Source of the DNA: Nymphaea colorata
Taxonomy: Eukaryota; Streptophyta; Magnoliopsida; Nymphaeales; Nymphaeaceae
Direction: 5' to 3'
Assembly (NCBI RefSeq): GCF_008831285.2
Contig: NC_045140.1
Span: 26,678,131-26,742,130, forward strand
DNA: 64,000 nucleotides
How positions within the stretch are numbered: position 1 is the first letter of the stretch; the number at the start of each line of letters is the position of its first letter. The notes below the pieces were generated by a model that was given only the letters and a program-made list of their open reading frames with translations, made no database searches and had not been told where the DNA came from. Position numbers and translations under genes: made by a program. This document shows, one piece after another, positions 46,201 through 49,200 of the stretch.

Positions 46201-49200
46201 CTCCTTGTTGGAGACTTGCAATTTTCATTTGAAGGTTGCACATATAGGCCACATCCTTCATAGTATGGGTTTTCTTGAGGAATTCCCAAGCTTCATGAAC
46301 AAAATTATGCTTTGGTATTTGACTCATGGTTGTAGTATCAACACAAGCAAGAATCCAAATAATGATTTTGTGGTGTCCTATCTTCCATTCTTCCTATTTT
46401 TTCTCATATTCACTCACAACTTTATCATTTTCGATTAGTTCATGGGTTTTTCCATCTATGGTTTTGGTTAGGACTAATTGTGGCTCACTTTTAGACCCAT
46501 CAACAAGTTCCCATAAACCTTTACTTCTAATGAATGTTCCATAGTTTCAGCCCAAGAAACATAATTGGATGAAGTAAGTTTAGGGAGAGGAGTAGTTCTC
46601 TCATCCATGATGTGTACCTTGTAGTTGAGTCGTTGAGGTAGCACTAAAATGAAAGAAAAACAGCCACAAAAACAACAACAATATGATTTTGGCAGGTCCA
46701 AAAGGGCAATACGAGTTGTTCCTCCAATATTTGAAAGACACCAAGTCAAAGAGCCAAAAACAAGGCTCTGATACCATGTAAATCAGGCCCAAACAAGACA
46801 AATGCTTCAAAAAATACACCCTTAAAGCTTCTACCAGCTTAACAAAGTAATGCTCAAAAGACCTCAACCAAGGGGAGAATAAAACATATAGGGCCCATTT
46901 GATGGGCAGGAAATCTACTGTCGCAGAGGGAATTTATTTCAAATTTTTAAAATTTTTTCCAATCCATCAAACATGGAAAAAAATTTTGGACCGTTGGAGG
47001 TGATTCCGGAAATATATTTCCGAAAAAATTTTTCTAGCCAGAAGGGTGGAAAAATTTTTCCAGAAATTTTTTTTTGACCGTTGGAGGAAGGAGGAAGAAT
47101 GGACGGGGAGCAAGAAGAAGGGAAGGAGAAGAAGGGAGGAAGGGAAGGAGGGAGGAGGAAGAAGGGAAGGAAGGAAGAGGAGGGAGGAAAGAAGAAGGGA
47201 AGGAGGGAGGAGGAAGAAGAAGGGTACGGCCCTGCCTCTTGAGGGCATAGACGACGTCCATGGCGGTGACCGTCTTTCGGCGAGCGTTCTCCGTGTAGGT
47301 GACTGCGTCGGGGATGACGTTCTCAAGGAAGATCTTGAGAACGCCTCTCGTCTCCTCATAGATGAGGCCGCTGATGCGCTTCACGCCTCCCCTGCGAGCC
47401 AGTCGCCGGATCGCCGGCTTCGTGATGCCCTGGATGTTGTCCCTTAGAACCTTCCTGTGCCTCTTCAGCAATCCCGGGCGTCCTCCTCCTCCTCTTCCGT
47501 CTTCCGTCTTCCCTCTTCCCTCTCTCTTCCGTCCCATCTCTCTTACGTCTTCCCTCCCAAACCCTTCCTTCTTCCTCTTCCTCCCTTCTCTTCCCTTCTT
47601 CCTCCTTCCTCCCTCCTCCCTCGCTCCCTTCTTCCTCCCTTCTCTTCCCTTCTTCCTCCTTCCTCCCTCCTCCCTCGCTCCCTTCTTCCTCCTCCCTCCT
47701 TCCCTTCTTCCTCACCATTTCCACCAAACGAAGAAATTTTTTTCAAGAAAAATAATTCCTCCATAACAAACAAAAGTTGGTTTTGGAAAAACAGAAAAAT
47801 ATTTCCGTTTCATCTATTCCAGAAATTTATTTCTGGAAATTTGTTTCCAGAAATAAATTTCCATCCATCAAACGGCCCCATATTGATCTCAACAAATAAT
47901 ACAAGAGGTGGCCAAAAAGCCATAACTAAACAATAGAGGAGTTGCCCTATTTATAGAGGAGATGACCACAAGGGAAGGAGGAAAACAGAAAAAGAAAAGG
48001 ATATATAGTCTCCCTTTAGGTAAAATAGAAAAAGGAAAGGGATAAAAAGGGAAAACAGAAAAAAACAATAAGAGAAAAGATACATAAAAAGAAAGTAAAA
48101 ATTACATAAGAGTCCTAAGTACCCAAATGTCTATATATATATATATATATATATACATATAAGACATATATTTGATGACTAATATATATATATATTGGGA
48201 TACATACATTCTAACAGTTATTCAATCACATCTTTTATGTGTTTTCTGTTTTGTATCTAAGATACTTTGCAAAATAGGCATATCAAAGTAGCTTTGTAAC
48301 TTTTACCTGATTTATTCTTCTCATTGAATGAAAAGTATCTATCATGTTGGAGGGCACTGAGGTTCTGATCAGATATGTATGTGACATATACACTGCTGCT
48401 TTAGTGTATCTTTTTCTATATTGTTCAGGCGTGCAATGGGATTGCATCAAGCCGTAGCACTTTGCATGGAGCATTGTGTTGCTTATGATAAGGGAGCATC
48501 AGATGATGGATGGTACAAGACTATTGTTCTGGCAGGTGGAACTTCATGTCTGCCTGGGCTTCCAGGTAATATAGCTTTTTGGTCAATTTTGCTATCCTTC
48601 CAAGACTATTGTTCTGGCAGGTGGAACTTCATGTCTGCCTGGGCTTCCAGGTAATACAGCTTTTTGGTCAATTTTGCTATCCTTGGAGATGTGTTCGTCC
48701 AACTCCATTCTAACCCTTTTAAGTTTTAACCCCACTTTATACCTCTCTATCATGAGAAGAAAATCTGTACTCTCTCTCTCCCCCTCTCTCTGTGGTTTAA
48801 GCACAAATTTTCTTCAATAAAAATGGTTTTTTACATTATTTAGGTTTGGAAAATTCTTTACCCACCCCGACCATGAAATTTTTGTTGTAATAAGATATAG
48901 CAAGATGTTTTTCTGCTCGTCTTGGTTTGGTTCTTATAAGTAAAAGCCAGTTCGATGGAATAGAGAACTTTGTTACAATTTACAAGCAGAGGCATCCATA
49001 TTCCATGAGAGGGCAGTGAGTTCCATCGATGAACTGTGCATGTATCTGTTTCTGCAGCATGTTATGCATTTGGTTCACATGTTGTTGAAGGATCTTACCA
49101 CTGGTACATCGCTTTAAATTTGAAGCATGAATTGGAGACTATATTTCTTATGCATTTACCTATCATGGCTTCCAGAGAGATTAGAGAAAGAGCTGTTTGA

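Follow-up and report, generated by a model that had tools for sequence, protein, structure and literature searches.

A histone H4 fragment carried by a Pack-PIF/Harbinger element within a copia-type LTR of Nymphaea colorata

The locus and its setting

The window, that is the whole 64,000-nucleotide stretch of DNA analysed here (C3:26678131-26742130 of the 408-Mb Nymphaea colorata genome), contains frames with several kinds of domain match and a copia-type LTR in which a smaller element with terminal inverted repeats (TIRs) is lodged (Table 1). A perfect (TA)67 repeat is present at window 42824-42957. The motif TGGTATCAGAGC resembles a primer site, and frames just past the LTR have matches to Pol_BBD and a zinc knuckle and a weak one to copia gag. 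The copia remnant is closed at window 45104-45249 by an inverted copy of the LTR's first part (two alignments, 82-94% identity), and the retroelement has therefore been truncated or rearranged and lacks a normal LTR pair. A tandem duplication of 85 bp (98.8% identical, window 48516-48684) lies over an apparent exon end, and the copia remnant with its inserted element seems to occupy an intron of the gene to which this exon end belongs. The F-box exon and the exons after 48.4 kb may form an ARP8-like gene; a later exon, after 48.4 kb, found no match in Pfam, and a PDB sequence search returned only an unrelated one (E 0.07).

Table 1. Features of the window (positions in the window; a dot in the strand column, no strand)
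Feature	Position	Strand	Evidence
Ubiquitin-conjugating domain frame	767-1078		domain match
WD40 domain frame	20214-20624		domain match
F-box domain frame	37186-37569		domain match
Chlorophyll a/b binding domain frame	52425-53102		domain match
Copia-type LTR hosting the element	46777..48216 (46777 end approximate)	-	TGTTAG start, primer-site-like TGGTATCAGAGC
TATA box of the LTR	47949..47956	-	sequence; same direction as the element's H4 frame
Pack-PIF/Harbinger element, 989 bp	46891..47879	-	15-bp TIRs, empty sites, 287 matching genome pieces
Target site duplication ATA, left	46888..46890	.	empty sites
Target site duplication ATA, right	47880..47882	.	empty sites
TIR GGGCCCATTTGATGG	46891..46905	+	15 bp; pattern GGGSCCRTTTGATGG counted in genome
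TIR GGGGCCGTTTGATGG	47865..47879	-	15 bp; pattern GGGSCCRTTTGATGG counted in genome
Purine-rich tract on H4 sense strand (inverted repeat, upstream arm)	47481..47713	-	
Open chimeric frame, 167 codons plus stop	47034..47537	-	ORF reading
Captured histone H4 fragment, codons 16-97, 246 nt	47220..47465	-	H4 alignment, genome matches
Pyrimidine-rich tract on H4 sense strand (inverted repeat, downstream arm)	47083..47219	-	

The limits of the element are given by other copies of the LTR that lack it. Part of the LTR has 41 matches in the genome, the window's own included, and the other 40 yielded 29 loci for comparison. In eight of the 29 the flanks join exactly and share a single ATA in place of the window's two; five more come within two bases of this empty site, seven offer no usable pair of flanks and nine show other distances. 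The empty sites fix both the ends of the element and its 3-bp target duplication.

Histone H4 is found in the middle of a long open frame at the centre of the element. The chimeric frame matches H4 in phmmer with an E value of 5e-47, and alignment of the core leaves 80 of 82 residues unchanged, R67P and H75N being the only differences. Its identity as H4 was taken from this match and alignment and not from Pfam, which in a scan of the chimeric frame returned only CENP-T_C, below its cut-off; Rfam gave no match at gathering scores. A sequence-only reading of this DNA had described such a core, with the same two substitutions, in a 167-codon frame that lies downstream of the LTR's TATA box and runs the same way, and had seen the tails around it as repeat-encoded. 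All of this agrees with our results, the tails being repeat tracts that seldom hold stops. A 54-bp unit of pyrimidine tract is doubled without a mismatch (window 47576-47683), a sign of recent tract growth.

Family of the element and source of its cargo

Pieces matching the element occur 287 times in the genome, and the 15-mer of its TIR, GGGSCCRTTTGATGG, occurs 641 times where the reversed control occurs 0 times. Among the 38 family loci read, which came from the best matches of the 287, a TIR pair is recognisable in 34 and an exact 3-bp target duplication in 22, the duplicated bases being TTA or TAA in 14 of these 22. The window copy (ATA) and the C6 copy (CTA) have neither, which counts against a PIF/Harbinger assignment. 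DDE_Tnp_4 (PF13359) is the transposase domain of PIF/Harbinger elements, and its combination with a Myb/SANT domain is the anatomy of that superfamily. PF13359 scored at 150 places in the genome. Of the 18 that lie within the range of the TIR listing (C1 and the first 16.9 Mb of C2), seven have an inward-facing TIR within 6 kb, against a random mean of 0.16 and a maximum of 2 in 2000 trials, and three are bracketed. One of the three (L090) has exact TIRs, TTA on both sides, and both DDE_Tnp_4 and a Myb/SANT domain (Myb_DNA-bind_3). A similarity search between it and the window element found nothing longer than the terminal repeat. A further domain encoded in L090, at L090:873-1235, is the N-terminal one of RNase H1 (PF01693, E 4e-16), which was perhaps captured or recruited.

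None of the PF13359 places listed falls inside the window element, where the Pfam scan covered the H4 frame. The element combines a host-gene fragment and no transposase with membership of a multi-copy family of loaded and unloaded copies; its family leans towards 3-bp TTA/TAA duplications, and it shares its TIR with an element that carries DDE_Tnp_4 and Myb domains. Other classes were considered and rejected. Mutator elements make 9-bp duplications and a Pack-hAT would need 8 bp, whereas the empty site shows 3 bp, which excludes Pack-MULE and Pack-hAT alike; a Pack-CACTA would need CACTA termini and the ends here are GGGSCCRTTTGATGG. Because 14 of the 22 exact duplications are TTA or TAA and DDE_Tnp_4 elements with the same TIR are present, the window element is a non-autonomous Pack-PIF/Harbinger element with H4 as its passenger.

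The arrangement of TIR, purine tract, cargo or short spacer, pyrimidine tract and TIR was found in 14 of the 16 loci drawn, L020 and L024 being more complex. The cargo region was read in nine loci, and Pfam domains were found in four. A fragment of NF-YB (PF00808, E 3e-8 to 5e-8) is the cargo of L014, L015 and L016, and L017 has a weak SecE-like fragment (E 0.004, below the curated cut-off); Pfam gave no match for L028 or for the second cargo of L011. H4 and NF-YB, two of the family's recognisable cargos, both belong to the histone-fold genes, a pairing that is probably coincidence. L015, L016 and L029 have both flanks in common and represent one insertion duplicated with its surroundings, and L014 shares their right flank; one of the copies lies very close to the beginning of C4, and an unplaced contig holds another. 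These loci have been multiplied by segmental duplication or by assembly.

A protein search of the genome returned 12 H4 matches, made up of seven intact genes that encode the same protein, four copies of the element and one unrelated remnant. A short H4 remnant outside the family, at C3:10817656-10817757, is 80.5% identical over 77 nt and has upstream residues unlike the family junction. At the nucleotide level the H4 piece of the window is 97.6% identical to the gene at C4:27163058, from which six differences separate it, and 84.5-89.0% identical to the other six genes. The H4-bearing copies of the element are those of the window, C6 and C12, which hold the whole piece, and one on C4, which is truncated and has other cargo besides. 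The edges of the piece are identical in the three whole-piece copies and the C4 copy has the same upstream edge; the tract adjoining the downstream edge varies by a short indel among the three. Edges held in common by several copies indicate a single capture followed by transposition. Capture by a mobile TIR element had been proposed from the window sequence, with a count of copies in the genome as one check, and the multi-copy family, target duplication, empty sites and donor gene all bear the proposal out.

The best explanation of the whole, to which we assign a probability of roughly 0.93, is that a PIF/Harbinger element took 246 nt of C4:27163058 and spread it as neutral cargo. The 246 nt would have been copied from within the donor gene into the centre of the element, between its purine- and pyrimidine-rich arms. 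Donor and element have GAAGAGG in common at one H4 edge and CCCT at the other, which fits template switching while a break in the middle of the inverted repeat was being mended, and it is likely that an internal break was repaired with switches at these two motifs. A PIF/Harbinger transposase may then have carried the loaded element to new sites, one of them the copia LTR in the window. About 15 nt beside the upstream H4 edge, CGCCCGGGATTGCTG, are not accounted for by this simple repair picture and count against it.

Two other routes could have brought H4 into the element. In the first, two neighbouring elements would have bracketed H4 and then moved as one, the model put forward for maize Pack-PIF and other Pack-TYPE families in the available part of PMC8903248. 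We consider this unlikely here, as the cargo starts and stops within one coding frame and at the centre of an inverted repeat, the only match to the element in 2.4 kb around the donor is H4 itself, and there are short matches at both edges, as for the gap filling described in the accessible text of PMC8277862. The second route, independent insertion of an H4 pseudogene or retrocopy into a resident element, is most improbable. The donor frame has no intron, so introns are of no help in excluding an RNA copy; the piece nevertheless consists of codons 16-97 only, with no UTR, poly-A tail or duplication seen around it, and its edges recur in C6 and C12 and, upstream, in the C4 copy. These common edges among copies led us to discard independent retro-insertion. 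Nearly the whole chain of gene capture is visible: donor, piece, empty site, sister copies and same-ended elements that bear a transposase. A carrier family with its cargo centred in a long purine/pyrimidine inverted repeat lends itself naturally to testing the break-repair model of capture.

The open frame and the fate of the H4 piece

Taken at face value, the chimera could be a working protein produced from the LTR promoter, one that would enter nucleosomes or histone chaperones and act as a dominant negative. An open frame, a start codon in good context (G at -3 and +4), the TATA box upstream in the same direction and the 80 unchanged core residues lend themselves to this idea, but we give it almost no credence, and the frame itself is the first argument against it. 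A pure purine or pure pyrimidine tract cannot hold a stop, because stops consist of T followed by purines. Among the family loci read, a frame that reaches 167 codons or more from stop to stop occurs in all 34 without H4, and one of such length that begins with ATG in 24 of the 34; some of these frames continue into flanking DNA, and copies of closely related elements account for four of the loci. As such length is the rule in the family, openness alone carries no signal: the frame is free of stops, as had been pointed out, but the long frame around H4 is a side effect of repetitive DNA. Of the four H4-bearing copies, two (window and C6) have the ATG in frame with H4 and two (C12 and C4) have it out of frame. 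Purine/pyrimidine arms can by themselves produce long open frames, and caution is needed in reading them.

The changes in the H4 piece provide a second argument. Three differences from the donor, two silent and H75N, are common to the window, C6 and C12, so that H75N is not private to the window copy but present in both other whole-piece copies. Private to the window are one silent change and R67P, while eight private changes can be counted in C6 and ten in C12. The C6 and C12 sister copies carry R17W, R23T, K59M, R39G and T54R, and C6 also has a 1-nt deletion. Pooled over the three copies, 12 of 20 private changes are nonsynonymous where the neutral expectation is 0.70 (p 0.34), a count that omits the three common changes, the C6 deletion and codon 82, where either the donor and all the copies disagree or the change seems to lie in the donor. 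Between one H4 gene and another, in the same codons, there are 25 silent differences and 0 of 25 that alter the protein. Private rates in H4 are also near those of the arms, at 2/237 and 3/346 respectively in the window, 8/237 and 10/346 in C6, and 9/237 and 20/346 in C12, where H4 (3.8%) is somewhat slower than the arms (5.8%); the arms were compared over four copies and H4 over three, with the purine and pyrimidine tract columns omitted because alignment is unreliable there. The two omitted tracts hold 1 and 0 private changes in the window, 3 and 18 in C6, and 7 and 15 in C12.

Neither the relative rates nor the nonsynonymous fraction, with the three copies pooled, supports selection on the H4 frame, although the window copy alone, with its two private H4 changes, offers too few to exclude weak constraint. 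That the H4 of the window seems intact reflects the small number of changes in this copy, the lowest among the copies in H4 and arms alike. A functional variant under purifying selection was rejected on the 12 of 20 pooled changes and the closeness of the H4 rate to that of the arms, and to judge from these patterns the piece is most likely neutral cargo that does no protein work. The sequence-only reading had seen an unusual, preserved chimera, and this view does not survive: private changes fit neutrality, their rate approximates that of non-coding arms and long frames are common in the family. It appears that an intact, open and conserved-looking histone frame can be mere cargo.

Features of the transcript also tell against a protein. 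If LTR transcription starts about 30 bp below the TATA box, as was assumed, six ATGs precede that of the chimera, one of them opening an overlapping 120-codon frame, and for this reason translation of the chimera is improbable. R67P places a proline in the long central helix of H4, which it would break. The predicted fold of the strand reaches -445 kcal/mol, whereas 20 shuffles average -352 (z -15.5), and so strong a fold is a further obstacle, even though the chimera ATG sits in a small 3-bp side hairpin outside the long stem, which weakens this argument. The dominant-negative potential once suggested for the chimera is not supported, with no sign of selection, tails that are repeat tracts, an ATG out of frame in half of the H4-bearing copies, six upstream ATGs and R67P.

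The same fold raises the possibility of a role for the RNA. Read-through from the LTR promoter, which faces the element, might yield a long hairpin, and small RNAs made from it would silence the element family and possibly also affect the donor H4 gene, to which the piece is 97.6% identical. However, in the predicted fold only 41 of the 246 H4 bases find partners in the arms and 110 pair within H4, and since H4 is in sense orientation small RNAs from the stem would target the arms rather than H4. We regard this model as very unlikely despite the z score of the fold. It is highly improbable that nucleosomes or the live H4 gene are acted on by H4-containing small RNAs from an LTR-driven hairpin or by a short peptide from the chimera; if true, it would mean that a transposon has made a regulator of a core histone.

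Comparison with known gene-capturing elements

Neutral capture by a PIF/Harbinger element places this locus beside several known systems. Plant Pack-MULEs likewise hold gene-fragment cargo in a non-autonomous TIR element, with a 9-bp duplication as against the 3 bp found here. Among animal Pack-TIRs is the fly Ssk-FB4, in which FB4 is a Foldback-type carrier. As in the animal elements, Ssk-FB4 included, that are described in the available part of PMC8277862, the capture at this locus is suggestive of gap filling with microhomology and breakpoints skewed inward. For Ssk-FB4 the same portion of that report (PMC8277862) gives proteomic support and signs of positive selection; in contrast, the H4 piece shows no sign of selection.

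A core histone has been captured before in fungi, where, according to the accessible text of PMC6710886, a hAT transposon of Pseudocercospora fijiensis and relatives captured and amplified histone H3. The two cases are alike in that a coding piece of a core histone has become transposon cargo, has been multiplied and is decaying. They differ in that the fungal copies number hundreds and were inactivated by RIP, whereas there are four here that show ordinary drift, and in that the fungal cargo was probably taken from a transcript; fungi, hAT and H3 stand against plant, PIF/Harbinger and H4 (PMC6710886, in the part available). In a literature search for H4 as cargo, none of the titles and abstracts listed from the open part of PMC described a plant H4 capture.

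The closest resemblance is to the Pack-PIF elements of maize and rice, for which the available part of PMC8903248 gives TTA/TAA duplications in 52.4% of cases in rice and 81.2% in maize. With these the present family shares a 15-nt TIR, mostly TTA/TAA duplications (here 14 of 22 exact ones), an internal host-gene fragment, loaded and unloaded sisters and a second cargo in a subgroup. The plant and the donor gene are different, however, and long purine/pyrimidine arms flank the cargo here. In Pack-PIF cluster 18 a 163-bp host-gene fragment is retained at 97% and average lengths are 402 and 535 bp (PMC8903248, same portion); the elements described here are longer, at 0.6-1.6 kb. H4 as cargo is a matter of which gene was caught and not a new kind of system: the event is an ordinary one with an eye-catching passenger.
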